This document shows positions 982 through 38,044 of a DNA stretch of 38,205 nucleotides, one piece after another. Made by a program: the position numbers and the translations under genes. The notes below the pieces were generated by a model that saw nothing but the letters and a program-made list of their open reading frames with translations, was not told the origin of the DNA and did not search any database. The DNA comes from a virus. The number at the start of each line of letters is the position of its first letter. Position 1 is the first letter of the stretch. The stretch is from positions 1 to 38,205 of the IMG/VR virus record IMGVR_UViG_3300042981_000154. The stretch is one strand, 5' to 3'.

Positions 982-2495
982 TGGCTGATTGGTTCGAGAC
1001 GAATGACCCCGGCATTGTTGCCTCGCCGGACGGGCGCGAGGTGCCACGATCGCTTTTGCCACCGACAGACCGCATCGTGCCGGCTCCTGCGCAGTCGCCC
1101 ATACCCACGGCGCCGGCGCCCATGGGGACGCCCCCCACGGCGCAGAGCGTGCTCGCCAAGCTCGACGAGCCGCGCATTGCTGCCGCTCGGGGTCAGTTGC
1201 CGATCGCACAGCAAAGCACGACGACCCAAAGCGCAGTCCCGATGAGCACGATCAAGCCTGTCATGGATCGTGGGATGCGGCGCGCCGAAGACCAGGCACA
1301 GGCCACCGTCGACATGGGTGAGGAGAAGGCGCGCATCGGCGAGCAACAGGCCATGACGGCGGCAACGGCCGCATACGGCCAGCAGCAGACGAGCGAGGCT
1401 GATGCGGCGCTCCACGCGCAGCGCGCCGATATCGCGCGGCAGAATCAGTTGGCCGTCGCCGCCCAGGAGGACCCGAGCATCGACCCCGACCGATTCATTC
1501 GCGGAATGAGCACGGGGCAGAGCATCGGCACGGTCATCCTGGCCGCCATCGAGGGGGCGTTCCGTGGCATGACGGGGCAGCCCGGGCAATCCGGCGTGCT
1601 CAACATCTTGGAACGCCGCATCGATCAGGATATCGCGGCCCAGCGTGAGCAGATCGCGAGCGGGCGCATTCGGCGCGGGAACATGCTCGCATACTTTCAG
1701 CAGCAGGGCTTGGACGAGGCCGCGGCAGAGAAGGCTGCGAAGGCGATGGCGCTCGCGCAGGCAGAGAAGCTCACGGCAGCCGAGATTGCGCGTCAAGGCG
1801 CCGGCATGGCGCGCGCCGAAGGCAAGGCGCTCGCTGAGCAGATCAAGGCCGCGCGTGAGCAGGCTAACGACGAGCTGACGCTGACGCTCGGCACGCCGCG
1901 CAGCACGACGACGACCGTGCGCGCACAGCCGGCTGCGGCGAGCGGGGACCCACTCATGCGGGCACTGCAGCTCGACAAGCTGCTGGAGGAGCAGGGTTAC
2001 ACTCGCGAGCAGCGCGCGTCAATGCTGGACGCCGCCGGCATCCCTGCCCCCGGTGGCGCCACCGCGGCGGAACGCAAGGGCGAAGGCGACTTGAGCGAGC
2101 CGCAAGGCAAAGCGCAGGCCGCCGCCGAGAGCATCGACGCGTTCGCGCAAGCAGCGGGACTCGTTCGCGACCCGAGCACTGGCAAGTGGCGGAGCGGCGA
2201 GGGGATTGTGCCGCCGGCGCTGCTGGAGAAGATCAACCCGTTCAGTGACAACACCATCAAATCTCGCTTTGAGGCAGCCGTTGAGGCGTACGGTCGTATG
2301 CAGTCTGGCGGCGTCATAGGCGATGACGAGCGGGCGGCGTTCCGCGAGCAGCTCGGGGGAGAGACCACTACGCGAGAGCAGTTGGCGGCTCGGCTCAATG
2401 CCGCGGACACGACTCTTCGGTCGCGTCAGGCGGAGCGAGCGCGGCGCCCAGAGGGCGGAGCAGAGGCAGCTGGTTTTCGCAAGGTTGGCAAATGA
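981..2495 (+). CDS. Coiled-coil virion protein, probable ejection protein
   Basis: A 504-residue protein. Residues 1-100 are Pro-rich and probably disordered. Residues of about 100 to 310 are dominated by Ala, Gln, Glu, Arg and Lys with long uninterrupted helical stretches, consistent with a coiled coil. There is a small hydrophobic patch near residue 180. The C-terminal third is mixed and ends in a basic tail. It overlaps the gene before by one base (TAATG) and the gene after by four (ATGA), so translation is probably coupled. Size, helicity and neighbours resemble the second protein of podovirus ejection complexes (compare T7 gp15 or P22 gp20 by position). No sequence family was recognised. 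Confidence 0.65.
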   Translation: MADWFETNDPGIVASPDGREVPRSLLPPTDRIVPAPAQSPIPTAPAPMGTPPTAQSVLAKLDEPRIAAARGQLPIAQQSTTTQSAVPMSTIKPVMDRGMRRAEDQAQATVDMGEEKARIGEQQAMTAATAAYGQQQTSEADAALHAQRADIARQNQLAVAAQEDPSIDPDRFIRGMSTGQSIGTVILAAIEGAFRGMTGQPGQSGVLNILERRIDQDIAAQREQIASGRIRRGNMLAYFQQQGLDEAAAEKAAKAMALAQAEKLTAAEIARQGAGMARAEGKALAEQIKAAREQANDELTLTLGTPRSTTTTVRAQPAAASGDPLMRALQLDKLLEEQGYTREQRASMLDAAGIPAPGGATAAERKGEGDLSEPQGKAQAAAESIDAFAQAAGLVRDPSTGKWRSGEGIVPPALLEKINPFSDNTIKSRFEAAVEAYGRMQSGGVIGDDERAAFREQLGGETTTREQLAARLNAADTTLRSRQAERARRPEGGAEAAGFRKVGK

Positions 2496-5400
2496 CGATT
2501 TTCGTCGACCCGAAAACGGGGGAGAAGTTTGAGAATGACGCCCCGGACGCCGAGGTCAAAGCCGAAGAATTCGGCCTCGTAACACAGGCAGCGTATGAGG
2601 CTGAGCAGCGCAGCGGCGGGTTCATCCCAACCGTCCAGGCCGTTGGCGAAGAAGCCGTGCGGCAGGTGGTCGGTGGCATCCAGGCCGCGCAACGCGCAAT
2701 TGGCCAGGGCCAACAGCGACTCGCGGACGCTGGCGCAACGCCGGGCTTGCCCGCCACGGGCGCAGTGGACCCAGCGACGGGTCTGCCCGTCGGGGCAGTG
2801 GGGACAGCGGACCCGACGGCTACCATTCGCAGCGCGACGCCGGGCCTGCTCTCACCTGAGGCCTTGGAGCGGCGCGAAGTCAACCCGATAGCGACCGGGC
2901 TCGGCGCGACGGCGCCGTCCGTCGCGGCCTCCCTTTTTTTGCCTGGGTCTGGTGCAGCTGGGCTCGCCGCCACTCTCGGCATCGATTCGATCAGCGGGAT
3001 CGGGCAAGCCGCGGTGGACGCAGAATTGGAGAACCGCGAGATCTCGGGCGAGGACGTGCTGCGCAACGCGGGGCTGAATCTGGCGTTTTCCCTGCCCCTC
3101 TACGGCCTCGGTGAGGGCGCGCGCGTCGCGCTGCAGGGCAGGCGCATCTCAGCGCTAGAGCGGGCCGCGAGCGCCGCCAAGGACACCGCTGGACAGCGCG
3201 CCGCGGCCGCCGAGGGGGCAGATCTGGCGCGTGCCGCCGCCGACCCCGCGGTGCAAGCCGACCTGCTCGACCGCGTGGCGTCGAACACAGACGATGCCGT
3301 ATCCAGAACGCATTCGCGCCTCGAGGGGGTCGCGCCGCCTGTCGTGGCGCGTAATCCTCGCGCGCAGCGCGAAGCCGTTGGCGCCATCGCTGACGTCGTG
3401 CGCACGGCAGACCCTGACTTAGCGGCGCGACTCGATGGCCTCACCAAGGGGTCCAGCCGGAAGCGACTCGAGGGGCTACGCGCCATTCGCGACGAGCTCG
3501 CATCCGCGGGGGAATCGGACACGTTGACGGCCATTGAGGCCACGATTGGTCGCGAGGATTTGTGGGGGTCAAAAGCCATCCGTGGATCGTCCGATCTCGA
3601 CGCCGCGATTGGCGCGAGGCCAGCCCCCGGCGCCGCGCCGGAGGATCTCATTGATTATGCGGCGAAGGTGCGGTCAGTCCGGAGCGGCGAATTTGCTGGC
3701 TTGGCAGATGAGATCGAGCAGTTGGCTGAACGTCAGATTGAGATTCGCACTGCTTCGGCGATTGGAGATGTTGCGCCACAGGCAGCCAATGACGCGGTCG
3801 ATTACGCGGCGGCGATGCGCGCCATCGACCCGAACGAGGCGTGGCGACTGACGCAGGACGGCGCCGATGAGGGGTTGCGCCGACTCGAGTCCGCCAGCGT
3901 GTCGGATGCCTTACAGCGCGTCGACGACGTCCTGCGAGAGGACGTTGCAATGGCCGTCAAGCGCGAGGATTTCGTCAAGGGCGCTGAGAGCTGGACGCCG
4001 GCTCAAATCGAAAAGCAGGGCCAATGGGGCGCTGACATGCGGGGGCGCGCCATGGCGCTCGCCGGCAAGCTCGCTGATGCCGAGACGCTTGGCTACCGCA
4101 TCGGTGGGTTCCGCGCAGAGGCCACGAGCCTCATCGACCGCACCGTGCAGCGTCTCGCCGAAGCGGACCCTGTCACAGTCAACCACGAGTGGGACAATCT
4201 CAAGCGCGGGCTCGACTCGCTTGGCAAGCGGCTGGCAGCGACTGGCCCATCGATCGACGAGGCGAGCAAGGTATGGGGATCGAAGGCAATCATCGAGCTC
4301 GCGGACGACATGCGCAGGGGGCTCGAAGACGCAGAGCTGTGGGGCCGCAATGCTGGCTTGCAGAAGGAGACCAACGCCGCATGGGTCAACATCATCGACC
4401 CATACAGCCGCGTCACCAAGCGCATGAGCGAGTTCCTTGGACGCCAATTCGGCGTTGTTGGGCAAGCCGGCATTCGGCGCCGATTCGATCCCGACATGAT
4501 CGAGTCGATCATGAAGGGCGGCTATCAGCGCAACCTGCGCGCCGACATCGATGCGAGCGTCGACGCGCTGGACCAGATGATGCGCGCGCGCCAGAGCCAG
4601 GGCCTGTCGCATCTGGAACGTCTGAGCAAGGCGAGAGAGGACCTGGTGCGCATTCGCCAGGGCTTTGACTTCGCCGACCTGCTTGCTGTCGCCAAGAGCA
4701 AAGCCAAGGCGCCGCTCGGGCTGGAGATCGCCGAGCGCGTCGCCGGCAACGCCGCCCCGGGTGGGATCATTGGGTCTGTCGCTGGCCCCATCGCGGCGCG
4801 CGCGCGCGGAGCCATCGTTGGCGAGTTGCCCATGCTGACCCCCGGCAGTAAGTCACCGCTCGCGGCTGCCGTGCGCCGGCACCTCGGGCTTACGCGAGGG
4901 GAGCAGGCTGCGATGCTCGCGGACCCTGCTTTTTACGAGCGTTTGCCGGGTTCACTGCAGAGGCAGATCATGGCGGGTGGGGCGGGCGGAGATCGCGCCG
5001 TCGAGATGGCATCCGTCGCCGCCGATGCCGCGAAACGTGACCGCGAGCTGACCGCGCGTCTCATGGTCAATCCCGAGGACGCGAAGCGCGCGAAGAAACT
5101 GCGGCGAAAGAAGGCCACTCCTGCGGTCGACCGCGCGCGCGCGCGCGTCACACAGAGCGGATCGGTATCGATTGGAGCGGCGCATCGCATCCCGCTCGAT
5201 GACGTCCGCGTGCGCGGTTCGGACGGCCTTTTGGAGCGAGCGTCCAAGGCCCAAGCCAAGCAACACGCTGCTGACATCGAGCGCGTGGCGTCCGACGCAT
5301 TCGCCCGCAAGTCGCTCGATGATCTCGGCGCTCTGCCAATCGACGAGGGCGACACCGCCAGCCGAGCCAAGATCGATGCATTCAAGCGCGACCGCGAATT

Positions 5401-6571
5401 CACGTCCAAGGGCATGTTGCCATCGAACAACGACCGGGGGCGTGGCGGTCTGCCAGCGCTGTCCGTTGACGCCGACGGCAGTGCCTATCTCAGCAACGGT
5501 CGGCACCGATTCACGGCCGCGAGAGAGAGCGGGCAAGAGTGGATCGTTGCCAACGTCAAGCGTTACGACACCAACGGCGACACGGTCTGGGATTATGTTG
5601 GCCCCGTACGGATCAACTCACCCGGCGGCGCGCGCATATCTCGCCACGAGCAGGCCATCGTCGAGCGGCTCAAAAAGCTCAAACCGGGGACCGTCGAGCA
5701 CAGTCAGCTGTCGCGCACGTTGGGCCGAGTCCGAGAGCGCGGAGCGGAGCGCGGCATGGTCGACGTTGGGCCGGGGCAGGCGGCAAAATCAATCGCGACG
5801 AGCCCGCTCGGCGTAGGAGCCGGGGCCGCCGGCGCGGTCGTCGCCTACCATCACCTGGCTGAGCCTGCGGCGCCGGACCCGGAGAGCATGACGGCGTTGC
5901 AGCGATTCTCGGACGGCTACGACCGACCCATCGATGCGTTCCGCGCCGCGCGCAAGATGATCCTGGACTGGCAGCAGAACCCCGATGCGCTGATAGAGAT
6001 GATCGCGGGCCACATCGGTGACGTTGGGCAGCTATCGCCAAAGCTCGAACGTGAGATGACGGCGCAAGCCATGCGCATCGCCGGATACCTGCAGGACAAT
6101 CTGCCTGGGCAGCGGAATGTGAGCGTCGTCTACCCGGATGGCACCCCGCCGAGCCGCGCCGAGGTGCGGCAGTTCGCACTGCGATTCGGGGCCGCTGTTG
6201 ACCCGGCAGGTGTGCTCGCTGACGCGCGCGCGGGGCGCATCGAGCGGACGCAGTTGGAAACGCTGCAGGCGCTCTGGCCGCGCGAATACGATGCCCTCAG
6301 GGCTGGCGTGATCCAAGAGCTCGGGGGAGGCCGCGCAACGCCTCAGACCCGGCAGCGCATGAGCCTGTTATTCGGCTTCCCGAGCGGCGTCGACCCGGCG
6401 CTGGGGCCTCGCACGCGCGCCGTCGTTGCCGCCGCCAGAGGGGCCCAGGAGAGCCGTGCGCGCGCGCCGCGCGGCTCAGGAATGAATCGACAACGGCTCC
6501 CCAGCACTGCTACGATGCAGCCTGCGGGCATGGCGGCACTGTCGCTGGGCGCGCAGATTGGAGCACCCTGA
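2492..6571 (+). CDS. Giant virion protein with embedded ParB-like domain, probable ejection protein
   Basis: At 1359 residues this is the largest protein in the window. In order: a charged N-terminus; a Gly/Ala-rich hydrophobic stretch around residues 130-175 that could interact with membrane; a long helical Ala/Arg/Asp-rich body; a distinct domain at about 888-1043; a second Gly/Ala hydrophobic patch near 1110; and a C-terminal helical region of the type seen at the ends of large phage virion proteins (IERTQLETLQALWPREYDAL). The 888-1043 domain has the ParB/sulfiredoxin-like signature, a conserved strand followed by N1002-G-R-H-R-F-T-A-A. ParB-like folds can bind nucleotides or act as nucleases. 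Transglycosylase motifs were not seen. Ejection function is inferred from size, position and composition. Confidence 0.7.
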   Translation: MTIFVDPKTGEKFENDAPDAEVKAEEFGLVTQAAYEAEQRSGGFIPTVQAVGEEAVRQVVGGIQAAQRAIGQGQQRLADAGATPGLPATGAVDPATGLPVGAVGTADPTATIRSATPGLLSPEALERREVNPIATGLGATAPSVAASLFLPGSGAAGLAATLGIDSISGIGQAAVDAELENREISGEDVLRNAGLNLAFSLPLYGLGEGARVALQGRRISALERAASAAKDTAGQRAAAAEGADLARAAADPAVQADLLDRVASNTDDAVSRTHSRLEGVAPPVVARNPRAQREAVGAIADVVRTADPDLAARLDGLTKGSSRKRLEGLRAIRDELASAGESDTLTAIEATIGREDLWGSKAIRGSSDLDAAIGARPAPGAAPEDLIDYAAKVRSVRSGEFAGLADEIEQLAERQIEIRTASAIGDVAPQAANDAVDYAAAMRAIDPNEAWRLTQDGADEGLRRLESASVSDALQRVDDVLREDVAMAVKREDFVKGAESWTPAQIEKQGQWGADMRGRAMALAGKLADAETLGYRIGGFRAEATSLIDRTVQRLAEADPVTVNHEWDNLKRGLDSLGKRLAATGPSIDEASKVWGSKAIIELADDMRRGLEDAELWGRNAGLQKETNAAWVNIIDPYSRVTKRMSEFLGRQFGVVGQAGIRRRFDPDMIESIMKGGYQRNLRADIDASVDALDQMMRARQSQGLSHLERLSKAREDLVRIRQGFDFADLLAVAKSKAKAPLGLEIAERVAGNAAPGGIIGSVAGPIAARARGAIVGELPMLTPGSKSPLAAAVRRHLGLTRGEQAAMLADPAFYERLPGSLQRQIMAGGAGGDRAVEMASVAADAAKRDRELTARLMVNPEDAKRAKKLRRKKATPAVDRARARVTQSGSVSIGAAHRIPLDDVRVRGSDGLLERASKAQAKQHAADIERVASDAFARKSLDDLGALPIDEGDTASRAKIDAFKRDREFTSKGMLPSNNDRGRGGLPALSVDADGSAYLSNGRHRFTAARESGQEWIVANVKRYDTNGDTVWDYVGPVRINSPGGARISRHEQAIVERLKKLKPGTVEHSQLSRTLGRVRERGAERGMVDVGPGQAAKSIATSPLGVGAGAAGAVVAYHHLAEPAAPDPESMTALQRFSDGYDRPIDAFRAARKMILDWQQNPDALIEMIAGHIGDVGQLSPKLEREMTAQAMRIAGYLQDNLPGQRNVSVVYPDGTPPSRAEVRQFALRFGAAVDPAGVLADARAGRIERTQLETLQALWPREYDALRAGVIQELGGGRATPQTRQRMSLLFGFPSGVDPALGPRTRAVVAAARGAQESRARAPRGSGMNRQRLPSTATMQPAGMAALSLGAQIGAP

Positions 6572-7890: not shown

Positions 7891-8406
7891 TTAATCGTCA
7901 GACGCGCCGGTGCCGTCACCCCCGGGGGTGACGCCCGATTCGGCACAGAGCAACGGCAGCAACGCCTCGCGGTTCGCTCGCATGGCGTCGAGCAACTCCG
8001 GCGGGGGGGCGCTCATCAACTCGCCCAGCGTGCGTTGGCGCGCCGCGATTTCGTCGATGAGTTCGCCAATGTCGACCCTCTCTCGCGGCCCGCCCACGGG
8101 CACCAGCTTGCCCCATCGGCGCGGCGCCCACCGCTCGAGCAACCACGCGCTCGACTCCCATCCCTTGATGCCGCTTTGCACGCGCGCGAGCGCTTGCGCC
8201 TCGAGGTCGTTTGAGGCCTGGATGTAGTTGGCGGCGAATTGCGCGCACATGGTCGATGGGTCATCGCGCATGCCGCGGCTGATGACGGCGCGCAGTGTGG
8301 CCCCGTCCAGGCCCACCTCGTGAGCGATCTGGTCGTCGAACAGCCAGGTCTCACGGCGCAGATCGAGCGCTGCGTCGAGTTGCTGCTGTGTCGGCTCAGA
8401 CGGCAA
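7891..8406 (-). CDS. Probable terminase small subunit
   Basis: A 171-residue product. The N-terminal region (residues 20-50) looks like a helix-turn-helix (FDDQIAHEVGLDGATLRAVI). The middle has the signature often seen in small terminases, a helix ending WESSAWLLERWAPRRWGKL (about 83-101). The C-terminal part is helical and acidic and ends in a flexible tail. The start appears to be TTG at 8406, overlapping the previous gene by 11 bases, with GGGAAAG upstream. Small terminases recognise phage DNA and recruit the large subunit to begin packaging. The assignment rests on the HTH, the WLLER-type motif and the packaging and head neighbours. The large subunit lies on the other strand about 3.7 kb away, which is unusual. 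Confidence 0.6.
   Translation of the reverse strand: MPSEPTQQQLDAALDLRRETWLFDDQIAHEVGLDGATLRAVISRGMRDDPSTMCAQFAANYIQASNDLEAQALARVQSGIKGWESSAWLLERWAPRRWGKLVPVGGPRERVDIGELIDEIAARQRTLGELMSAPPPELLDAMRANREALLPLLCAESGVTPGGDGTGASDD
7915..7932. repeat. 18-bp palindrome, copy 2 of 3
   Basis: GTCACCCCCGGGGGTGAC, a perfect palindrome of 9-base arms with no spacer, inside the last codons of the probable small terminase gene, where it codes VTPGGD on the minus strand. Copies 1 and 3 are at 7056-7073 and 13464-13481. Confidence 0.75.
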
Positions 8407-9226
8407 TCAGGTTGGCTTTCCCGCGTTCAATGGCATCGGCCAGGATAGCGGCGTCGTCGATGGCGCCAAGGACGTTGTCGTAGTGCGTGATGCGCCAGAA
8501 TTCGCCCTTGCACCGCACTCGCTGAGATAGGTCGGCGGAGAGTATCACGAGGTCGCCGGGCGCGATATCCGGGGCGCGCTCGGCGCGCTGCGCGCGCACG
8601 CGATCAATGAGCCGCTGCGTGGTGGTATCCATCGCCACCCAGCCTGTGCGCGACGTCAGATCATCGAGCAGCTCGCGCTCTGCGGGCAGCACGTGCCCCG
8701 GCGGCGATCGTCCCGTGAGCTTGCCAATACGCACGACCTCTTCATACAGCACAGTCGTGGCCAACTCCCCACTGCTCGTCTTGCCGCCTGGGATGCCATC
8801 GGTCAGGAGCATGCGCGGAACCTCAACAAGGTCGCTGCCGAACCACGCGATCTTGAAGCGGTCGAGCGCGCGTCGCGTCACCACGTAATTGTCGAGCGGC
8901 ACGATGTCGCCGTCGGCATCATCGTACAATGCTACGAACGAGTCGGCTCCGCACAGATAGAGCTCGTCGCATTCGAGCACGAATCCCTGCTTGCACCAGA
9001 AAAAGTCGATGAAAGCGAGATCGCCTGGCTTCAGATGCGTGACCTGCTCGCCGACGCTCACGATCTCGCAGCAAGCGATGTTGTCGGGAACGCTCGTGAC
9101 CGAGTTGGCGAGCGACACCAGCCCGATGCCCGTCTCGCGATCAACCTCTGAGAACAGGTCCTCACGCGGGCGCAGGATGACGTTCGTCCCGGTCGCGCGC
9201 GTCTTGTAGCTGTCCAGTGGCTTCAC
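8396..9226 (-). CDS. Tandem GroES-like (Cpn10-fold) protein
   Basis: A 276-residue protein built from two Cpn10-like halves. Half 1: strand NVILRP (15-20); a loop holding GIGLVSL (33-39) where GroES has its mobile-loop GGIVL; CEIVSVGE (53-60); LKPGDLAFI (65-73); then a closing CDELYLCGADSFVALYD (86-102). Half 2 repeats the order: NYVVTRRA (113-120), TVLYEEVVRIGKL (158-170), IAPGDLVIL (221-229), then CKGEFWRITHYDNVLGAI (239-256), with an insertion at about 172-220. GroES-type proteins cap chaperonin cages; phages such as T4 encode their own (gp31) for capsid folding. The gene sits between scaffold and small terminase with a GTGA junction and a strong GGAG eight bases before the GTG. The fold call is by pattern only; the protein could instead be structural. 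Confidence 0.6.
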   Translation of the reverse strand: MKPLDSYKTRATGTNVILRPREDLFSEVDRETGIGLVSLANSVTSVPDNIACCEIVSVGEQVTHLKPGDLAFIDFFWCKQGFVLECDELYLCGADSFVALYDDADGDIVPLDNYVVTRRALDRFKIAWFGSDLVEVPRMLLTDGIPGGKTSSGELATTVLYEEVVRIGKLTGRSPPGHVLPAERELLDDLTSRTGWVAMDTTTQRLIDRVRAQRAERAPDIAPGDLVILSADLSQRVRCKGEFWRITHYDNVLGAIDDAAILADAIERGKANLIAV

Positions 9227-10146
9227 AGTCCGTTCTCCTTCACGAATGCCTGAATCTCCTCATCGAGCGTGCGCGGCCGCGTGCTACCACCATCCACACG
9301 CGCTGCGCGCGCTGCAGGTGCCTCTATCTTCTTTTTTTGTGGCGCACCGCGGCCCCCGTCGAACACCTTTTTTAAGCGCTGGAACTGCGCTTTGAGCTTT
9401 TCCTTCACGATCGGCAGAGCCTTCGCCGGCGTCGTGATGCCCTTGCTGTAGCCGGCACGAATCTCGGCCATCACCATGTCGACCACGTCGGGGTGATGCA
9501 GCTCGGGGGCGAGTCGCTTGACGCCATCGTCTGCCCACTTGCGAGCCTCAGCAACAGCCTGCTCTTTCCGGGCGGCTGCTTGCTGCTCGGCGGCCTTGCT
9601 CTCGCGGTCGCGCGCATCGAGCCGTTCCTTGCGCCCCGCGATGCCCTGCGTCGCCCAGCGCATGACGTCGTTCCACGGACGTCCGGACCACTTCTCAACG
9701 AGCGTGATGAACGCATCGACGTCGCCGTCCTCTGCGGCCTTGCGCGCAGCGATCGGGTCGCCATACTTCTCGGCGAGCTGAGTCACGAGCGAGTGCGCGT
9801 CCGAGTCTTTCTTTTGGGCTTTTTCGGCCGCTTTCTCAGCATGCTTGGCGGCGAGCCGCAGGGCTCGGTGCGCCTTGCTGCCGAGCAACTCATCGGCATG
9901 CGGTCCAAGCGCCTTGAGGAATGCCTGGACGTCTTTTGCCTTGATGGCAGCGGTTACCGCTGCGGCGTCGACGTCGGGCACCGTTTTTTCGTCAGGCACC
10001 GCAGGCGGTTCCGGCTCCCCCGACAGGTCCGCTTGATCGTCGCTCGGATCAGGTGCCGGCGTCTGGGCAGCGTCGGTGTCGGCGACGCCAATCTGATCCG
10101 CCGGGGTCTCCGCGATGAACGCGGCAATGTCTGCGTCAATTCCCAT
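9223..10146 (-). CDS. Probable scaffolding protein
   Basis: A 307-residue protein. The N-terminal 60 residues are acidic and Pro/Asp-rich. The middle is a long Ala/Lys/Glu/Arg-rich helix (about 95-210). The C-terminus is basic (QRLKKVFDGG, then KKK), followed by a short acidic helix. An acidic start, coiled-coil body and basic end next to the portal gene are the usual marks of a phage capsid scaffold, which guides procapsid assembly and then leaves. The ATG at 10146 has AGGA upstream. The stop overlaps the GTG of the GroES-like gene. The capsid protein it should act on is coded far away, at 24420. No sequence family was identified directly. Confidence 0.7.
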   Translation of the reverse strand: MGIDADIAAFIAETPADQIGVADTDAAQTPAPDPSDDQADLSGEPEPPAVPDEKTVPDVDAAAVTAAIKAKDVQAFLKALGPHADELLGSKAHRALRLAAKHAEKAAEKAQKKDSDAHSLVTQLAEKYGDPIAARKAAEDGDVDAFITLVEKWSGRPWNDVMRWATQGIAGRKERLDARDRESKAAEQQAAARKEQAVAEARKWADDGVKRLAPELHHPDVVDMVMAEIRAGYSKGITTPAKALPIVKEKLKAQFQRLKKVFDGGRGAPQKKKIEAPAARAARVDGGSTRPRTLDEEIQAFVKENGL

Positions 10147-10149
10147 GCA

Positions 10150-12060
10150 TTATCCTGCCAATTGGAGCCCAGCGGGGACCTGTGGCGCCGGCTGAAGCGC
10201 GGGGCCCGCCGCCGGTGCGCCACCCATCGGTGAACCGTCCATCGGTGCCCCGACACTCGCGGCCTGACCCGTGGATGGGTCAGTGGCAAGCGCCGCGCAA
10301 TCCGCCATGAAGCGGAAAAAGAAGTCGAGCCGCTCGGGTTCGAGGTCATCCATGTCCGCCTCGAGATAGGCTTGCACGACCTGCAGAAGAGCCTGCCCGA
10401 TCTTCATGTGTTCGAACGGCGGACGGTAGAAGTCGGGCTCTTGCACGTCATCGTCGCTGGCGAATTGCCAGCGCCAGATCTGTTTGTCGACCCACTGCCG
10501 TTCAATGTCGGCGTCGTCGACCTCTTCGGGTAGGTCGTACCCTTGGCCCTGCATCGCAGCAAGCGCTGAGTCGCTGAGGATGCCGAGCTGCTTCAATTCG
10601 AGCGCGGTCTGCATGCGGTCAGCTGGGTTACCCTTCTGGCCGCTCACGGCCGCCGGCTGCACCACGTACTTGATCTGCTCGATGCCACGCAACGCGACCT
10701 TGCCGCTGATCTCTTTCAGCGTGTCTTCGCCTGGTGCGAGCCGCATCAGCTTCGGGTCCCCATCGAATATCTCGCACAGGACCTGGATGATAATCTTGGC
10801 CGAGTCGACGGCGACCGCTTGCACGTAACGCTGTTGCAGCGACGCGAATCGTTCGTTGACCAGTGCCGCCACGTAGCGCTGGCCGATGGCCGAATCGATG
10901 CCCTCTTGGCGCTGCCCTGCGGTGTGCGACTGGCTCATGCCGCTGATGTCATGCGCGTCCTGGTAGTGACGGTCAGCGACCTGCAGATGCTCGGGGGAAA
11001 ACCCTGGCGCTTCCACTATGCCAGGTTCATAGGGCTCGTTCGTCAGGATGATCTTGACCTCGTCCGTGGAGGTAAGCGAATCGGGGTTCACGAGCTTGCT
11101 CTGGTCAACCCAGCGCTCCGACTCATTCGTCTTGCTGATGGCGCGGTCGACGCGAGCGAGTACGAGGTTGTCGCGCTTCACGCTCTCGTAGATGTGGTGC
11201 ACCATGCAATGCGCCAGCGGGCCGTACAAGTGCGGAGTGCATCCGAGCCAAACGAATGGCGGGCGCTCGTGTGGATACTCTTCGTTCTCCAGCGCGGCGC
11301 CGTTCTTCACACACACCACGCGGTGCCCTGGTTTTTCTGACGTGCAACCGCTGTATCCCTCGTAAACGGCCACGTACTCGATGAGTTTTTCCCCATTGCG
11401 CGTCGGCATGCGCCATTCATCAGGCGGCTCGCCAGCGCTCAATCGAATGTCGTCCTCGCCGTCGGGCCACATCTCGATGGCGTCCTCGACAGGGAGCCAC
11501 GTCACGCAGACTTGGCGCCGCATATCCTGGCTCCACGCCATGTTCAGAGTGTCGTGGATGCGAGCGTCACACTTGCCATTCGAGGCGAAAAACTGGACCG
11601 CGACGACGCCGGTGCACGCCGCTGCGAGCCGCAGCGCCGCGACCCAGAGGTCATGCAGGTTGGGCCATAGCCCCTTGGGTTGCTTGTACTCGGCACGCAC
11701 CAGCTCTTCGAGGTCCGCGGCCTGGCGCCTGTCCTTCCAGCTGCCGCGATTCGTCAGCATCGCGGGCAATGGCGGGTCAATCGCGCCGATCTTGCTCGTG
11801 AGCGTATCGACGACGGCAAACGCGACGTTGCGAATGATCGGTATCTCCAGGTCATCAAACGTGTTTTGCTCGAATGCGTCGTAACTGTATCCCCACGGCC
11901 CGAGACTCGTCAGGCGCATCCCTTCGACCGCCGTCGCGTACCGCTCGGCGAGCGAACGCCGGTTTTCTTGCACGCTCGCGAATCGAGCAAAGTAGCCGCG
12001 CAGGCGCTCGGCGGCCTCAAAGTCACTGAGGTCATCCGCCCAGAAGCTGCAATCGCCCAT
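10150..12060 (-). CDS. Portal protein
   Basis: A 636-residue protein, within the size range of podovirus-type portals, which form the dodecameric DNA gate of the head and dock the terminase. Recognisable portal traits: a helical N-terminus; an internal beta region; a segment rich in D/N/E before a long helix with RYVAALVNERFASLQQRYVQ; and a helical C-terminal part ending in a Pro/Ala/Gly-rich tail. ATG at 12060 is chosen because GAGGA lies ten bases upstream; the longer frame upstream would run into the large terminase gene. It is the first gene of the minus-strand head operon (portal, scaffold, GroES-like, TerS). Identification rests on size, composition and neighbours. Confidence 0.7.
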   Translation of the reverse strand: MGDCSFWADDLSDFEAAERLRGYFARFASVQENRRSLAERYATAVEGMRLTSLGPWGYSYDAFEQNTFDDLEIPIIRNVAFAVVDTLTSKIGAIDPPLPAMLTNRGSWKDRRQAADLEELVRAEYKQPKGLWPNLHDLWVAALRLAAACTGVVAVQFFASNGKCDARIHDTLNMAWSQDMRRQVCVTWLPVEDAIEMWPDGEDDIRLSAGEPPDEWRMPTRNGEKLIEYVAVYEGYSGCTSEKPGHRVVCVKNGAALENEEYPHERPPFVWLGCTPHLYGPLAHCMVHHIYESVKRDNLVLARVDRAISKTNESERWVDQSKLVNPDSLTSTDEVKIILTNEPYEPGIVEAPGFSPEHLQVADRHYQDAHDISGMSQSHTAGQRQEGIDSAIGQRYVAALVNERFASLQQRYVQAVAVDSAKIIIQVLCEIFDGDPKLMRLAPGEDTLKEISGKVALRGIEQIKYVVQPAAVSGQKGNPADRMQTALELKQLGILSDSALAAMQGQGYDLPEEVDDADIERQWVDKQIWRWQFASDDDVQEPDFYRPPFEHMKIGQALLQVVQAYLEADMDDLEPERLDFFFRFMADCAALATDPSTGQAASVGAPMDGSPMGGAPAAGPALQPAPQVPAGLQLAG

Positions 12061-12084
12061 TGATCGTGTATCCTCGCAGGACGG

Positions 12085-13449
12085 ATGCTCATTCGTCAAG
12101 ATCCATTGGCGGCTCTCCTGGCGCTCGCCCCGATACCAGTGTTGCGCGCCATGTCGGAGGCCCAGCGTCGAGCCCAATCCGGCGCCAAGCGCAAGCGGGT
12201 CTGGTTGGCTGGGCGCCGAGCCGGCAAGAGCTACCTTGCTGCAATCTGGTTGCTCGGAGGCAAACCAGGGCAACGGTCAGCGTTCTGCGCACGCACGCTC
12301 AAGAGCGCCAAAGCCATCATCCTGGGCACATTCGCCGAGCTCAATGCGCACTTCGGGCTCGGGCTCGACATCCGAATCTCGACCGGGACCGTTACCGAGC
12401 CCAACGGGCACGTCATCCAGCTCTACGGGCTGCGCGACATGAGCCAGGCAGACCTCATCCGTGGCCAGAAATTTCGCCGCGTCGTCGTCGACGAGGCCGG
12501 CGCGTTTGACGATGATCTTCTCAAGTATTGCCTAGAAAGCGTCATCCACCCGACGCTGCTCGACTGGCGCGGAGACCTCGTGGTCAGTGGCACACCCGGA
12601 CCAATCCCGAAGGGATATTACTACGATCTCAGCGGCAATCCCGGACTCGATGAGCCCGTCTGCGGCCGGCTGCAGACGCACCACTGGACGTATCGAGAAA
12701 ACCCGCACGTGCCACACGATGATGTGCTCGAAGAGGCATTGGAGCTTTATGGTGCCACAGAGGCAAGCCCGACGTTCCGCCGCGAGTATCTGGCGATCTG
12801 GTGCGAGGACCTCGATGCCATCATCTACCGCTACCGCGGTGAGCAGTGGGCACCGGTGCCGGGTCCCGGCAAGACGGTGCTGGCTATCGATTTTGGCTCA
12901 GGCAAAGAGCGTGCTGACGCGACGACCTTCACCGTCTGGCGCCAACCGCACAACACGCGCACGCACGTGTTCTGTCTGCAGGCCATCGCCAAGGATGAGA
13001 TTGAGCTGCCCGAGACAGCGGCCATCGCGCGCCAGCTGCGCGAGAGATGGGCCGTCAACAAGATCGTCGCCGACGAGGGCGCGCTCGGCAGCGCCATCGC
13101 CAAGGCTCTGCGCGGCCAATACAAGCTGCCGATCGAGGCAGCGAAGAGGCAGGACAAGAAGGGCCGCATCCTGGCCGCGCGCGGCCGCCTGGACGCCGGC
13201 ACGCTGCACCTGTGCGCTGAGGCCAAGCCGCTCGCTGACGAGTGGCTCTCGCTCTGCTGGGACGAGCATCGCCAGGACCATCATCCGCGTCAGGCCGACG
13301 ATCTCAGTGACAGTGCACTCTACGGTCTCGAGGAGTTCAGCGGATGGGAGGCCGAGGGCGAGAAGCCCGTGGTCATCGGTTTGCAGGACCGCATTCGCGA
13401 GCGCGCCATGCGGCGCGCACAGCGCGGCGCGTCGTTCCGAATCGATTGA
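12085..13449 (+). CDS. terL: Terminase large subunit
   Basis: A 454-residue packaging motor. The ATPase half has a Walker A-type motif GRRAGKS (43-49) and a Walker B VVVDEAG (133-139). The nuclease half is RNase H-like, with acidic residues D269 (LAIDFGSG), D330/E331 (VADEGA) and D405/D406/D409 (ADDLSDSALYG). It pumps DNA through the portal and cuts the concatemer. The start at 12085 follows AGGA closely; ATG 12151 is an alternative. It is divergent from the portal gene, with only 24 bases between the two starts, so promoters for either side must lie inside the opposite gene. An 18-bp palindrome lies 15 bases after its stop. Confidence 0.92.
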   Translation: MLIRQDPLAALLALAPIPVLRAMSEAQRRAQSGAKRKRVWLAGRRAGKSYLAAIWLLGGKPGQRSAFCARTLKSAKAIILGTFAELNAHFGLGLDIRISTGTVTEPNGHVIQLYGLRDMSQADLIRGQKFRRVVVDEAGAFDDDLLKYCLESVIHPTLLDWRGDLVVSGTPGPIPKGYYYDLSGNPGLDEPVCGRLQTHHWTYRENPHVPHDDVLEEALELYGATEASPTFRREYLAIWCEDLDAIIYRYRGEQWAPVPGPGKTVLAIDFGSGKERADATTFTVWRQPHNTRTHVFCLQAIAKDEIELPETAAIARQLRERWAVNKIVADEGALGSAIAKALRGQYKLPIEAAKRQDKKGRILAARGRLDAGTLHLCAEAKPLADEWLSLCWDEHRQDHHPRQADDLSDSALYGLEEFSGWEAEGEKPVVIGLQDRIRERAMRRAQRGASFRID

Positions 13450-20378: not shown

Positions 20379-20424
20379 CCATTATCAGTGGACAACGGAT
20401 GGTTGACGTGGCAAGGTGTCCGGG

Positions 20425-21153
20425 ATGACCAACACCACTCACATCGAATCGCTCCGAAAGCACATCTCCGAGGGCACGCTCATCCGTGGCGCCTGGACTG
20501 GCACCGATGCACAGGGACGCCATACTGCGTGCTTGCTCGCTGCCCTGGCCCCCCGGTGCGGCGTCGAACAGAACTCCTACTGGTGCCCAGCCAACGTCAT
20601 GCCGAAATGGCTCGCGCACTTGACGCCGTACATCGACGACAACGGGTCGCTCGAGGCGTGGCCCGCAATGGTGGAGCGCTTCGCTTCTCTCGCCGCGCGC
20701 TGGCACGTGCTCGACGAGCCCGCTTGGCAGCGCGTGAAATTCGCTTGGCTCGGAGCGGTCGTGCGCGAGGCCGCTGCCCACACGACCGACGGTAACGCCA
20801 AAGCCATCTGCGAACGAGTGGCAGCGCTCTGTGATGGTGTCGTGGCCACAGGCATCGTCGATGAGTCCTCGTTCGATTCAGCACGGCTTGATGCGTTGAC
20901 GGCGGCGGCCGGCTCGGCGTCGTCGTCGGCGTTGGCGGCGGCGGCGGCCGGCTCGGCGTCGTCGGCGGCGTTGGCGGCGGCGGCGGCGGGGGAGGCGTCG
21001 TCGGCGGCGTTGGCGTCGTCGGCGGCGTTGGCGGCGCGGGCGGCGCGGTCGGCGGCGGCGTCGTCGTTGGCGGCGTCGGCGGCGTTGGCGGAGGCGGTCT
21101 GGGACCGGCTAACCACCGTGCTGTTTGACCGCATCGAGCAGGAGCTCGGATGA
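20425..21153 (+). CDS. Protein with Ala/Ser low-complexity C-terminal half
   Basis: A 242-residue product. Residues 1-155 are an ordinary globular-looking domain (Trp, Cys and charged residues). Residues about 158-226 are almost only Ala, Ser and Leu, in repeats like GSASSAALAAAAA, then a normal helix VWDRLTTVLFDRIEQELG closes it. Phage proteins of similar design (globular head plus variable Ala-rich repeats) are known as hypotheticals. AAGG eight bases before the ATG at 20425 decides this start over a GTG at 20416. It overlaps the next gene by four bases. Function unknown. Confidence 0.6.
   Translation: MTNTTHIESLRKHISEGTLIRGAWTGTDAQGRHTACLLAALAPRCGVEQNSYWCPANVMPKWLAHLTPYIDDNGSLEAWPAMVERFASLAARWHVLDEPAWQRVKFAWLGAVVREAAAHTTDGNAKAICERVAALCDGVVATGIVDESSFDSARLDALTAAAGSASSSALAAAAAGSASSAALAAAAAGEASSAALASSAALAARAARSAAASSLAASAALAEAVWDRLTTVLFDRIEQELG
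20899..21090 (+). repeat. GC-rich low-complexity repeat inside a gene
   Basis: About 190 bases made almost only of GCG, TCG and TTG codons, with a recurring block GGCGTCGTCGGCGGCGTTGG. Runs such as GGCGGCGGCGGCGGGGGAGG on the plus strand could form G-rich structures. Repeat length probably varies by replication slippage. Confidence 0.75.
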
Positions 21154-24419: not shown

Positions 24420-25709
24420 ATGGGCACCTTTGAGAACAAGTTCCTCAAGAAGCAATTCGCATCGCCTGGCAAACTTCAGGCAATCGGCGACCGTGCGGCA
24501 CCATTCGCCGCGCTGTGCAGCAAGCCCGTCCAAGGGGGCGCGAGCGTCGCTGAGCCGGTCATCATCAGCGGCCTCAAGGCGCTGAGCTACACGGTTGCGG
24601 GGGCCAAGGCGGTCTCGGACCAGGACGACCACGGCGCGAGCGATTACGACGAGTTCAACTCGACGTTCGGGCAGTATTTCGGACACGCGCGCATCACGAG
24701 CCGCGCGGTCGCGGGCGGCAAGACGAACGCGGCGGCGTACCTGCGGCAGCTCTCCGAGATCCTGGGGACGAGCGTCGGCTCGTTTATGAGCGTCGGCGAG
24801 CGTAAGTTGCTGGGACCCATCGGGGGCGCCATTGGGCGAATCAGCAACGTCACCATCGGTGCCGACGGCGAGATGAGCCTGACGATCGATGGCGATGCGC
24901 AGAACTTCGCCGCGGGCATGATTCTGCAGGCTGCGAGCGCTGACGGATCGAGCGCAAGCATCACGGCGCGCGCTGGACTCGGTTACCCCTACGCTGTGTT
25001 CGTCGACGGTGATTCCAACGGCGCCCACATCCACGTTGCCACGAGCACCGCAAACGCGACGGCAAAGACCGCCGGCACACCGAGTGAGTGGGCCAACAAC
25101 GATTACCTGTTCCGCAACGGCGACGTCGCGAGCTCGACCGACTTGAGCGACAAGCAGGTCAGGTCGATCCAGGCGTGGATTACGCTCGCGGCAGCGACGA
25201 ACACGTATAACGCGGTTGACCGCTCGCGCGACTCGCGTCTCAGTGGCTTCCGGCTGAGCTCGAGTGCCGTTGCCGGCATGAGCATCCTCGATCGGATGCA
25301 GCTGCTCGCGACGGCTGGGCGCCATCAGTGCGGCGCCACGGAGGCAACCCTCTTCGTTGTCGGGCCTCAGACTGGCCGCCAGCTCGCGCAGGAGATGCAG
25401 AGCTATGGCCAGATCCAGTTCTCGGAGAACACGAGGGTCGGGATCAAGATGATGCAGGTCATCGGCGAGAACGGCGCATCTGACGTGCTCGTCAGCCCGA
25501 GCTGCCAAGAGTCCGACATCTGGTTGTTCACCGAGAGCACGCTCAAGATCTACAACTACGATGGGTTCCCGGCGTTGGATGATGCCGATGGCAACGAAAT
25601 CCTCAAGCAGGAAGGCGCCGCCGGCTACTTCATCCGATTCCACGCATTCAACTGCGTCACGGTGTCGGGCCGTCCGCATCATAATGGTCGTTGCCCCTCG
25701 GGCAACTGA
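24420..25709 (+). CDS. Major capsid protein
   Basis: A 429-residue protein of HK97-type capsid character: a charged N-terminal helix, a Gly/Ala/Ser-rich body with few Cys, a segment SRAVAGGKTNAAAYLRQLSE that fits the spine helix, a beta-rich middle (residues of about 140-215), a region with DRMQLLATAGRHQCGATEAT, and a C-terminal strand region. GGAG seven bases before the ATG, a long leader and a candidate promoter suit a strongly expressed late gene. It forms the head shell with the portal and scaffold, which are coded 12 kb away on the other strand. A minus-strand frame of similar length across this gene is only its antisense shadow. Confidence 0.8.
   Translation: MGTFENKFLKKQFASPGKLQAIGDRAAPFAALCSKPVQGGASVAEPVIISGLKALSYTVAGAKAVSDQDDHGASDYDEFNSTFGQYFGHARITSRAVAGGKTNAAAYLRQLSEILGTSVGSFMSVGERKLLGPIGGAIGRISNVTIGADGEMSLTIDGDAQNFAAGMILQAASADGSSASITARAGLGYPYAVFVDGDSNGAHIHVATSTANATAKTAGTPSEWANNDYLFRNGDVASSTDLSDKQVRSIQAWITLAAATNTYNAVDRSRDSRLSGFRLSSSAVAGMSILDRMQLLATAGRHQCGATEATLFVVGPQTGRQLAQEMQSYGQIQFSENTRVGIKMMQVIGENGASDVLVSPSCQESDIWLFTESTLKIYNYDGFPALDDADGNEILKQEGAAGYFIRFHAFNCVTVSGRPHHNGRCPSGN
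25690..25706. terminator. Hairpin at the end of the capsid gene
   Basis: GTTGCCC (25690-25696), loop CTC, GGGCAAC (25700-25706): a perfect 7-bp stem ending directly before the capsid stop codon. No T tract follows. Together with the next hairpin it may stabilise or partly end the capsid mRNA. Confidence 0.5.
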
Positions 25710-35505: not shown

Positions 35506-35780
35506 GACGGCATCGTCCGTTTGATGAGGTCGTTGACCATCGCGTTGCGCTTGTCGTCCTGCGCACAAGCCACTGCGGCGCAGCGCAGGGCTTGCTGGCT
35601 AAGCACCATCAGCTTGATCAATGGGCAGACCCCAGATTGGAGCATGTCGGACACCTGGCGACACAGTGAGATGAGCGCGAGCGCCTCGCGCTCGGCCGTC
35701 ATGAAATCTGGCGTGTCGGGCGCGCCAATGGCCTCGCCCAGCTCCGAATAAAGCTTGGACTGATGTGTTTTTTCGGTCAT
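35502..35780 (-). CDS. Small helical partner of the metalloprotease gene
   Basis: A 92-residue product beginning MTEKTHQSKLYSELGEAIGA. It is helical, with three Cys (ISLCRQVSD, GVCPLIKL, RCAAVACAQ) and a charged C-terminus. No signal peptide is visible from this start; an upstream start at 35822 would add residues MALASSRQLIHHAW. Neither start has a strong ribosome binding site. Its stop overlaps the GTG of the metalloprotease, so the two are a two-gene cassette. It could be an inhibitor or regulator of the protease, a guess from linkage only. No family recognised. Confidence 0.55.
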   Translation of the reverse strand: MTEKTHQSKLYSELGEAIGAPDTPDFMTAEREALALISLCRQVSDMLQSGVCPLIKLMVLSQQALRCAAVACAQDDKRNAMVNDLIKRTMPS

Positions 35781-35839
35781 CCACGCATGGTGGATCAATT
35801 GTCTTGACGACGCAAGCGCCATCAGTCAGTTTGCCCAGA
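35781..35839. promoter_or_regulatory. Divergent intergenic region
   Basis: A 59-base gap between the minus-strand protease cassette and the plus-strand helicase-methylase. It contains TTGACG on the plus strand, a possible -35 box, and a small inverted repeat TCAATTGTCTTGA. No clear -10 box follows. Divergent promoters may lie here or within the gene ends. Confidence 0.35.
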
Positions 35840-38044
35840 ATGAGATACGCAGATTTCCTCACCACCAAAGCGCGCACACACGTGCCCACAGGAATCGTCG
35901 ATACCCCGGCTCTGTCCGAGAAGCTCAAGCCGTTTCAACGTGACTCGGTGCAGTGGGCGCTCCGAAAAGGGCGCTGCGCGTTGTTTCAGGAGTGCGGCTT
36001 AGGCAAGACGTGGCAGGCCCTGGAGTGGTCACGATGCGTCGTCGAGCACACTGGAAAGCCAGTGCTCATCCTGACGCCTCTCGCCGTCGCAGCGCAGTTC
36101 GTGCGCGAGGGAGCCAAGATGGGAGTGCTCGTGGCGGATGCGCGCGCGCCCGCCGAGCTTGATGACGATTGGTCGCCGATGCCCTGGGTAGCGAACTACG
36201 AACACCTGCATCACCTGGATCGGCTCATCCCGCAGCTCAGCGGCGTCGTGCTAGACGAGAGCAGCATACTCAAGAGCTACTCGGGCAAGACGCGCACGGC
36301 GCTCATCGAGATGTTCGCGCGGACGCCGTTCCGCCTCGCGTGCACGGCCACGCCGAGCCCGAATGATGTAACCGAGCTCGGCAACCACGCCGAGTTCCTC
36401 GGCGCGATGAGCCGCGTCGAGATGCTCGCGACGTTTTTCTGTCACGACGGTGGCGACACTAGCAAATGGCGACTCAAGGGCCACGCTGAGGGGCAATTCT
36501 GGCAGTGGGTCCGCACATGGGCGATGTGCCTCAGCAAGCCGAGCGACATGGGATACCCCGATGACGGATATGACCTGCCGCCGCTGGAGATATATGAACA
36601 TGTCATCGACATGGACGAGCGCATGGCGAAGCAAGTAGGGCTTCTCTTCGCGTTCGAGGCAGCGACGCTGGCTGATCAGCGCGCGGTCAAGCGCGATACC
36701 ATCTCCGAGCGGGTCGAGCTGGCGGCGCGCCTGGCAAACGACTCCGGCGAGCAATGGATCGTGTTCTGCGACCTAAACGACGAGAGCAAGCGCCTCGCGA
36801 CGCTCATCCCGGATGCAGTCGAGGTCACGGGGTCAGACAGCGTCGAGCATAAGGAGGCGAGCGTCATGGCGTTCGCGGATGGTGCTAGGCGCGTGCTCGT
36901 GAGCAAGACGAGCATCTGCGGGTTCGGCGTGAATCTGCAGAATTGTCACAATGTCCTGTTTGCCGGCAGCGACCACTCGTATGAGCGATTCCACCAGGCG
37001 ATCCGTCGGTGCTATCGCTTCGGTCAAGAGCGCGGCGTCAATGTGCATCTCATTCGGACAAGCGCCGACGGGCGCGTGGCGCACAACCTGGAGAGGAAGC
37101 GCCTCGCGCACGAGGCAATGGTGAAAGGCATGGTGAAGGCAGTGGAGGCAGAAGTTGGCAGGCAGCGAATCGAGCACGTGGACAACGTCCGAGAGACCGG
37201 CAACGGATGGGAGATGCGCATGGGGGATTGCGTGGAGCTATTGCGTGACGTGCCATCCGATCATCTTGGATTCAGCGTCTTTTCCCCCCCATTCGCGTCC
37301 CTCTATACGTACTCTGACAGCGACCGCGACATGGGCAATTGCCGCTCGCACGATGAATTCTTCGTGCACTACGGCTATCTCATTGAGCAGTTGTTGCGCG
37401 CCACGAAACCAGGTCGACTCTGCAGCGTGCACTGCATGATCATGCCCACGAGCAAAGAGCGCGACGGTGTCATCGGGCTCACTGACTTTCCCGGGCGCAT
37501 CATCGCAGCGCATCAGGCGGCTGGCTGGGTCTATCATTCGGACGTGACTATCTGGAAAGACCCGGTGACAGCGATGCAGCGCACCAAGGCGCTCGGGCTA
37601 TTGTGGAAACAGATCCAAAAGGACAGCTGCATGAGTCGCATGGGCTTACCGGACCGCGTGCTAACGTTCCGCAAGCCCGGCGCCAATCCTGAGCCTGTAG
37701 GGCATAGCAAGGCCGAATTCCCTGTCGACCAATGGCAGCGTTGGGCATCCCCCGTCTGGGATGACATCAACCCGAGCGACACTCTGCAATACCAGAGCGC
37801 GCGCGAGGAAAGGGACGAACGGCACATCTGCCCGCTGCAACTCGAGGTCATTCGGCGGTGCATCAGGCTGTGGAGCAATCCCGGCGATTTGGTGCTCTCG
37901 CCGTTTGCCGGCATCGGCAGTGAGGGTTACGTCGCGATGCAAGAGAACAGGCGATTCCTTGGATGCGAGCTGAAGCCGTCGTACTTCCGGCAGGCGGTCG
38001 CGAATCTGCGTGCCGCGGAAAGCGTGCAGTTCAGCCTGTTCTGA
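35840..38044 (+). CDS. SNF2-like helicase fused to a DNA methyltransferase
   Basis: A 734-residue fusion. The N-terminal 450 residues are an SNF2-type helicase: LKPFQRDSVQWALRKGRCAL, GLGKT (Walker A, about 53-57), VVLDESS (139-142 as the DExx box), TATPSPN, then FHQAIRRCYRFGQERGVNVH as motif VI. The C-terminal 270 residues are an N6-adenine or N4-cytosine methyltransferase of permuted (beta) order: catalytic SPPF (482-485), then a target region, and last the SAM-binding motif FAGIGS (689-694). Such a fusion could modify or remodel phage DNA against host restriction, as DarB of P1 does by a different layout. ATG 35840 is chosen; upstream starts would overlap the divergent gene. It is followed 14 bases later by the first ejection gene. 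Confidence 0.85.
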   Translation: MRYADFLTTKARTHVPTGIVDTPALSEKLKPFQRDSVQWALRKGRCALFQECGLGKTWQALEWSRCVVEHTGKPVLILTPLAVAAQFVREGAKMGVLVADARAPAELDDDWSPMPWVANYEHLHHLDRLIPQLSGVVLDESSILKSYSGKTRTALIEMFARTPFRLACTATPSPNDVTELGNHAEFLGAMSRVEMLATFFCHDGGDTSKWRLKGHAEGQFWQWVRTWAMCLSKPSDMGYPDDGYDLPPLEIYEHVIDMDERMAKQVGLLFAFEAATLADQRAVKRDTISERVELAARLANDSGEQWIVFCDLNDESKRLATLIPDAVEVTGSDSVEHKEASVMAFADGARRVLVSKTSICGFGVNLQNCHNVLFAGSDHSYERFHQAIRRCYRFGQERGVNVHLIRTSADGRVAHNLERKRLAHEAMVKGMVKAVEAEVGRQRIEHVDNVRETGNGWEMRMGDCVELLRDVPSDHLGFSVFSPPFASLYTYSDSDRDMGNCRSHDEFFVHYGYLIEQLLRATKPGRLCSVHCMIMPTSKERDGVIGLTDFPGRIIAAHQAAGWVYHSDVTIWKDPVTAMQRTKALGLLWKQIQKDSCMSRMGLPDRVLTFRKPGANPEPVGHSKAEFPVDQWQRWASPVWDDINPSDTLQYQSAREERDERHICPLQLEVIRRCIRLWSNPGDLVLSPFAGIGSEGYVAMQENRRFLGCELKPSYFRQAVANLRAAESVQFSLF

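Follow-up and report, generated by a model that had tools for sequence, protein, structure and literature searches.

Double co-chaperonin lids are familiar chiefly from chloroplasts and have received very little notice in phages. Some phages replace GroES, T4 among them with its co-chaperonin gp31, which probably makes the folding chamber larger. T4 gp31 substitutes for GroES on GroEL to fold gp23 (PMC3012670); it has no roof loops, and its mobile loop is longer, with 22 residues versus 16 (PMC6318259). Both Cpn20 and GroES concatamers built of six to eight domains function with seven-fold GroEL (PMC5780408), and the apicoplast cpn20 can stand in for GroES in E. coli (PMC3542282). For Pervagoviridae, a family of Cellulophaga phages, a 2021 paper names chaperonin cpn10 as a core protein (PMC8776804). 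The phage protein described here, encoded in a conserved head gene block, carries two Cpn10-type domains, one with the roof hairpin missing and the other with a helical insertion at its place.

The gene and its place in a conserved head gene block

The window analysed in this study is an entire IMG/VR record of 38,205 bases. On its minus strand, an ORF with a GTG start (8396..9226) encodes a tandem Cpn10-like protein of 276 aa (30.3 kDa and pI 4.7, computed from the ORF), as indicated by the ORF itself, its homologues, and the profile and fold evidence given below. The GTG overlaps the stop of the upstream gene as GTGA, and a Shine-Dalgarno-like AAGGAG (9235..9240, minus strand) lies 8 nt before it, inside the end of that upstream gene. 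In addition, the 3' end of the gene overlaps the start of the next one.

The surrounding block, also on the minus strand, begins with the portal gene (10150..12210; P22_portal, E 3.8e-5, and phrog_156), the homologues of which are 47-66% identical. It is followed by a gene for a putative scaffolding protein of 307 aa (9223..10146), directly upstream of the tandem Cpn10-like gene, with homologues that are 34-41% identical and occupy the same place in the relatives. The small terminase subunit (7891..8406; phrog_4102, E 1.1e-5) is encoded directly downstream in an overlapping ORF, and its homologues are likewise found at the same place. The large terminase gene (12085..13449, plus strand; phrog_2, E 2.4e-32) is divergent from the portal gene, in the relatives as well. 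The order portal, putative scaffold, tandem Cpn10 gene and small terminase was kept in the window and in all relatives, and in all relatives the genes of the block overlap or are closely spaced. The sequence-only reading had placed the gene in a head operon beside the scaffold gene; the head operon is borne out by this conserved block and the adjoining gene does exist, while its identity as a scaffold was assigned solely from position, size and composition.

Three distinct homologues of the 276-aa protein, with 43-50% identity, are present in four IMG/VR records. They were reached by way of the putative coat protein of 429 aa: scanning with it led to L017, L018 and L019, which carry the gene (45% identity, E about 1e-57), and a further coat scan brought in L034/L036, whose protein is 50% identical. 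Scans with the family alignment (viral and genome contigs), the portal and a coat motif yielded no further family members. L017 and L018 are IMG/VR records of different metagenomes, and they are identical across the 21,293 bases compared.

The 429-aa protein of 45 kDa encoded at 24420..25709 (plus strand) was taken as the putative major coat protein from its size, its conservation and, in L017 and L019, its position following the small terminase; it has no profile match. A correction concerns its gene, which is not adjacent to the block in the window: there, as in L034/L037, it lies far off on the opposite strand, whereas in L017 and L019 it follows the block directly downstream on the same strand. 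This difference in coat placement between records is a rearrangement of the head module. No Cpn60 (GroEL) gene was found in the five phage records searched; thus, the partner chaperonin would be that of the host.

Other features were observed in these records. The portal and large-terminase ORFs of the window overlap by ~126 bases at their 5' ends (12085-12210), provided that the assigned ATG starts are correct. In L024 and L025 (G001 and G002), the portal match holds one in-frame TGA, which may sit at a margin of the match or point to an unusual start. Right after the large terminase, L017 encodes a small protein with a sigma-70 region 2 (3234-3827, minus strand; Pfam E 1.7e-6), and a similar ORF occurs in L019 (2582-3214, minus strand); these are possibly phage sigma factors. 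L019 also carries a GIY-YIG endonuclease gene (9283-9990, plus strand; E 6.6e-12) between the small terminase and coat genes that is missing there in L017 and looks like a homing endonuclease insertion. On the plus strand of the window, a 759-aa protein (35765-38044) joins an SNF2-type helicase part to an N6/N4 DNA methylase (Pfam 1.8e-18), an unusual fusion. A 1359-aa protein (2492-6571) with no convincing family match has relatives in L037 and L038 and is possibly a large virion or ejection protein, and the second half of a 245-aa ORF (20416-21153) is a degenerate Ala/Ser repeat.

Relationship of each half to the Cpn10 family

The N half of the protein contains, in order, the blocks NVILRPRE, GIGLVSL, CCEIVSVGE, LKPGDLAFIDFF and ELYLCGADSFVALY, and the C half contains PLDNYVVTRR, YEEVVRIGK, IAPGDLVIL and GEFWRITHYDNVLGAID. 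Thus, all of the blocks that had been quoted in support of a Cpn10-like order in both halves are present, and in that order.

Searches with the single sequence gave faint signals. Pfam Cpn10 (PF00166) gave zero matches to the 276-aa protein, also when searched within the record alone, and the sole Pfam match was to ADH_N ('GroES-like'; E 0.034). In the PHROG search, residues 8-71 were matched by phrog_931 (E 0.04; 3e-4 for this model against the window record alone), the family of T4 gp31, for which gp31 itself scores 3.7e-50. For comparison, Pfam Cpn10 likewise finds nothing in Aeromonas phage 31 gp31, an annotated member of the gp31 type; the homologue in L036 reached 18.4 bits, just under the cut-off of 21.1. 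As a lone query, the protein retrieved no relatives among phages, viral contigs or bacterial genome contigs. The top PDB sequence for the family profile was GroES (E 0.017), and the PHROG 'co-chaperonin GroES' matched two homologues, one in its C half and the other in its N half. No Cpn20 sequence was among the phmmer and profile matches in the PDB, though Cpn20 chains are present there; by sequence, the phage protein does not appear to belong to the plastid Cpn20 lineage. Weak phmmer matches to FadR-type regulators were confined to a 20-residue stretch at the insertion described below and were taken as chance.

Comparison between profiles linked each half separately to Cpn10. A Cpn10 profile was built from 13 phage and bacterial GroES sequences, in which E. 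coli GroES agrees fully, by score, with PDB 1aon over 97 residues, and a gp31 profile was built from four sequences. With hhalign, whose E-values here refer to single comparisons and not to database searches, the N half matched the Cpn10 profile (prob 85.5, E 5.7e-6), the gp31 profile (prob 92.5, E 4.9e-7) and, most strongly, the combined Cpn10 and gp31 set (prob 96.4, E 1.1e-9). The C half matched the Cpn10 profile with prob 86.3 and E 4.8e-6; without its insertion the E-value was 5.7e-8, and a global alignment covered 98 columns with prob 92. The C half did not match the gp31 profile (prob 0.4). In 100 column shuffles per comparison the prob never exceeded 8, and when alignments of the portal, coat, scaffold and terminase from these phages served as controls, the prob was 0.5 or lower.

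The earlier proposal of two GroES-like domains therefore stands, since each half matches a Cpn10 profile (prob 85-96), and a Cpn10 profile search came out positive for both halves between profiles and negative with Pfam. These comparisons argue that both halves are homologous to the Cpn10/GroES family. Because the score falls below the curated Pfam cut-off, we regard the product as a divergent Cpn10/GroES relative and do not claim curated membership of PF00166. The two halves showed no detectable similarity to each other (score 19.2, below the best shuffle at 21.4), and the idea that they are recognisable repeats is unsupported. Their dissimilarity may reflect either an old duplication with very uneven divergence or a fusion of two kinds of Cpn10.

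Predicted fold and asymmetry of the two domains

A single-sequence AlphaFold2 model was unusable (pLDDT 34). With four sequences, one of the five models was usable (pLDDT 60, pTM 0.61; the others <40), and because only this one could be used, it was weighed together with the sequence evidence. The strands of its two halves run in parallel order. The top Foldseek matches were the tandem Chlamydomonas co-chaperonins 7ekq R and Q, named Cpn20 and Chaperonin 23 (E 1.2e-7 and 1.1e-6, ~265 columns), followed by single Cpn10s, with gp31 and GroES among them. VIA-align gave Z 10.8 to 7ekq_R over residues 3-254, compared with 8.6 for GroES (5opx), 7.3 for gp31 (1g31) and at most 7.2 for alcohol dehydrogenase-type chains. 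As the VIA list probes mainly residues 4-108, the predicted fold of domain 2 rests on the two-domain match to 7ekq and on the sequence profiles. This moderate-quality model predicts the Cpn10 beta-barrel fold, and the structure comparison suggested beforehand thus favoured the tandem lids first and then GroES and gp31.

Domain 1 (8921..9205, minus strand; residues 8-102 by hhalign) is of Cpn10 type and gp31-like, and the VIA-align rows to GroES and gp31 span residues 6-103. A short turn, GEQVTHLKPGD, takes the place of the GroES roof hairpin. The predicted mobile loop (9083..9148, minus strand; residues 27-48, pLDDT <50) aligns with the mobile loops of GroES and gp31 and contains GIGLVSL, in agreement with the position proposed for this motif from sequence. 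The hydrophobic residues of the loop are present, and the motif is not strictly conserved, being GIGLV, GIELV or GTKLPGLQLF in the homologues.

Domain 2 (8453..8911, minus strand; residues 106-258 by hhalign) is also of Cpn10 type. At the mobile-loop position, as judged from pLDDT and the alignment, it has a loop (8756..8863, minus strand; residues 122-157) with pLDDT <50 at 124-129 and 131-147. An insertion of ~47 residues (8576..8716, minus strand; residues 171-217) occupies the position of the roof hairpin; it is mostly helical, with helices at 181-191 and 199-214 in the model, and its sequence and length vary among the homologues.

Proposed function and alternative explanations

We consider it fairly probable that the protein is a phage co-chaperonin of two fused, dissimilar Cpn10 domains that acts as a lid for host GroEL and is adapted to a head protein encoded nearby. 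The ring capping host GroEL would be assembled from three or four copies, giving six or eight domains, perhaps with host GroES mixed in, and the mobile loops, clearest in domain 1, would grip the chaperonin. The absent roof hairpin of domain 1 and the helical insertion of domain 2 would reshape the dome to allow the folding inside it of a phage head protein, for which the coat protein is the likeliest candidate. The client is likely the putative coat protein at 24420-25709, a guess from the neighbourhood. Ring formation, GroEL binding, the client and the effect on the chamber are what we infer by analogy with known lids.

This lid reading draws on several lines of evidence. Both halves match Cpn10 well beyond the level reached by the shuffles and by other proteins from these phages, and the top fold matches are tandem co-chaperonins, then GroES and gp31. 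The head block is conserved, and the five records searched gave no Cpn60 gene; similar neighbourhoods occur in the unrelated phages PBR31 and phi18:3. There are also precedents, both for gp31 (PMC3012670, PMC6318259) and for two-domain lids on GroEL (PMC5780408, PMC3542282). Counting against it are the strong divergence from GroES, with which the interaction with GroEL could have been lost, the loop motif that is not strictly conserved, and the single usable model of five with its pTM of 0.61.

A bolder version of the lid reading, which we put forward only tentatively, is that the protein is a chimera of a gp31-like roofless domain and a GroES-like domain with a helical-bundle roof. Seven-fold GroEL would be capped by six or eight such domains, and the helices would enter or crown the chamber for one capsid protein.

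An unlikely alternative is that the two Cpn10-type barrels have been reused in a virion or prohead component, of the head or the connector, with no role at GroEL. The location of the gene among structural and packaging genes would suit such a component, as would the variable loop motif and the strong divergence of the domains from GroES, yet both domains have kept a Cpn10 profile signal. A weak and indirect argument against it also comes from phi18:3, where the annotation of gp096 rests on similarity, whereas 'MS/MS' is given as the evidence for the portal and several virion proteins.

There is a slim chance that the protein chaperones assembly independently of GroEL or caps a different host ring such as ClpP. 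Chains R and Q of 7ekq, which gave the best structural matches, derive from a chloroplast ClpP complex in which they form such a cap, and the helical insertion could bind a partner other than GroEL; however, these chains are themselves co-chaperonins of chloroplast Cpn60 (PMC5780408), and ClpP is not indicated by anything in the window. Finally, a lack of any co-chaperonin kinship, with an alcohol dehydrogenase GroES-like barrel or chance resemblance behind the ADH_N match and the ADH barrels at lower Z in the fold list, is very improbable, as the protein has such a domain twice and revealed no nucleotide-binding domain, the ADH chains rank below Cpn20, Cpn10 and gp31, and neither the shuffles nor the control proteins match.

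If the lid reading is true, a natural tandem lid with two different roofs, encoded close to its likely clients, would probe how client specificity is set by lid shape and by symmetry mismatch, an even number of domains on a seven-fold ring. Work on this question has so far relied chiefly on Cpn20 of chloroplasts and on GroES concatamers made by engineering.

Comparison with known co-chaperonins

The phage protein resembles the plastid Cpn20/Cpn23 in having two Cpn10-type domains head to tail, and these proteins are its best structural match across both domains. It differs from them in being encoded in a phage head block, in its sequence (~15% identity), and in its roofs, as domain 1 lacks the hairpin and a helical insertion replaces that of domain 2. 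T4 gp31 (phrog_931) is likewise phage-encoded, and its profile is the single-family profile that domain 1 fits best (prob 92.5); both domain 1 and gp31 lack the roof hairpin and have a loop of about 22 residues. However, gp31 has a single domain, and domain 2 of the phage protein is unlike it (prob 0.4). E. coli GroES shares the block order and the mobile-loop position with both halves, whereas it is a single domain with a roof hairpin, and the phage protein fails Pfam Cpn10.

Among other phages, Xanthomonas phage PBR31 carries its Cpn10 gene in a head module of similar make-up, which runs from GroES through a small ORF, terL, portal and scaffold to capsid, but its GroES has one clear Cpn10 domain. 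PBR31 was rejected as a sequence relative, its head proteins having no detectable similarity to those of the present phage. A further phage parallel is gp096 of Cellulophaga phage phi18:3 (200 aa, phrog_13932), which is annotated as 'co-chaperonin GroES' and encoded just upstream of terL and portal. Its C half matches Pfam Cpn10, its N half is weakly Cpn10-like by sequence, and in the viral structure library it aligned to the phage model over both halves, as did further unnamed viral entries of 183-304 aa. It is very probably a tandem Cpn10, so the view in the sequence-only reading that phage GroES analogues are single-domain does not hold. Both gp096 and the present protein are encoded close to genes for packaging and the head, and gp096 too is probably a tandem Cpn10. 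It is too diverged to be found by a sequence search from the window protein, has no comparable insertion within its 200 aa, and lies upstream of terL and not after a scaffold gene.

Our literature search found no description of tandem phage co-chaperonins, phi18:3 gp096 included, which is not proof of absence. Taken together, these comparisons suggest that phage tandem co-chaperonins occur in unrelated lineages and are able to stay hidden from Pfam. A tandem phage co-chaperonin as such thus has a precedent in phi18:3 gp096, and the variant with two different roofs is new.
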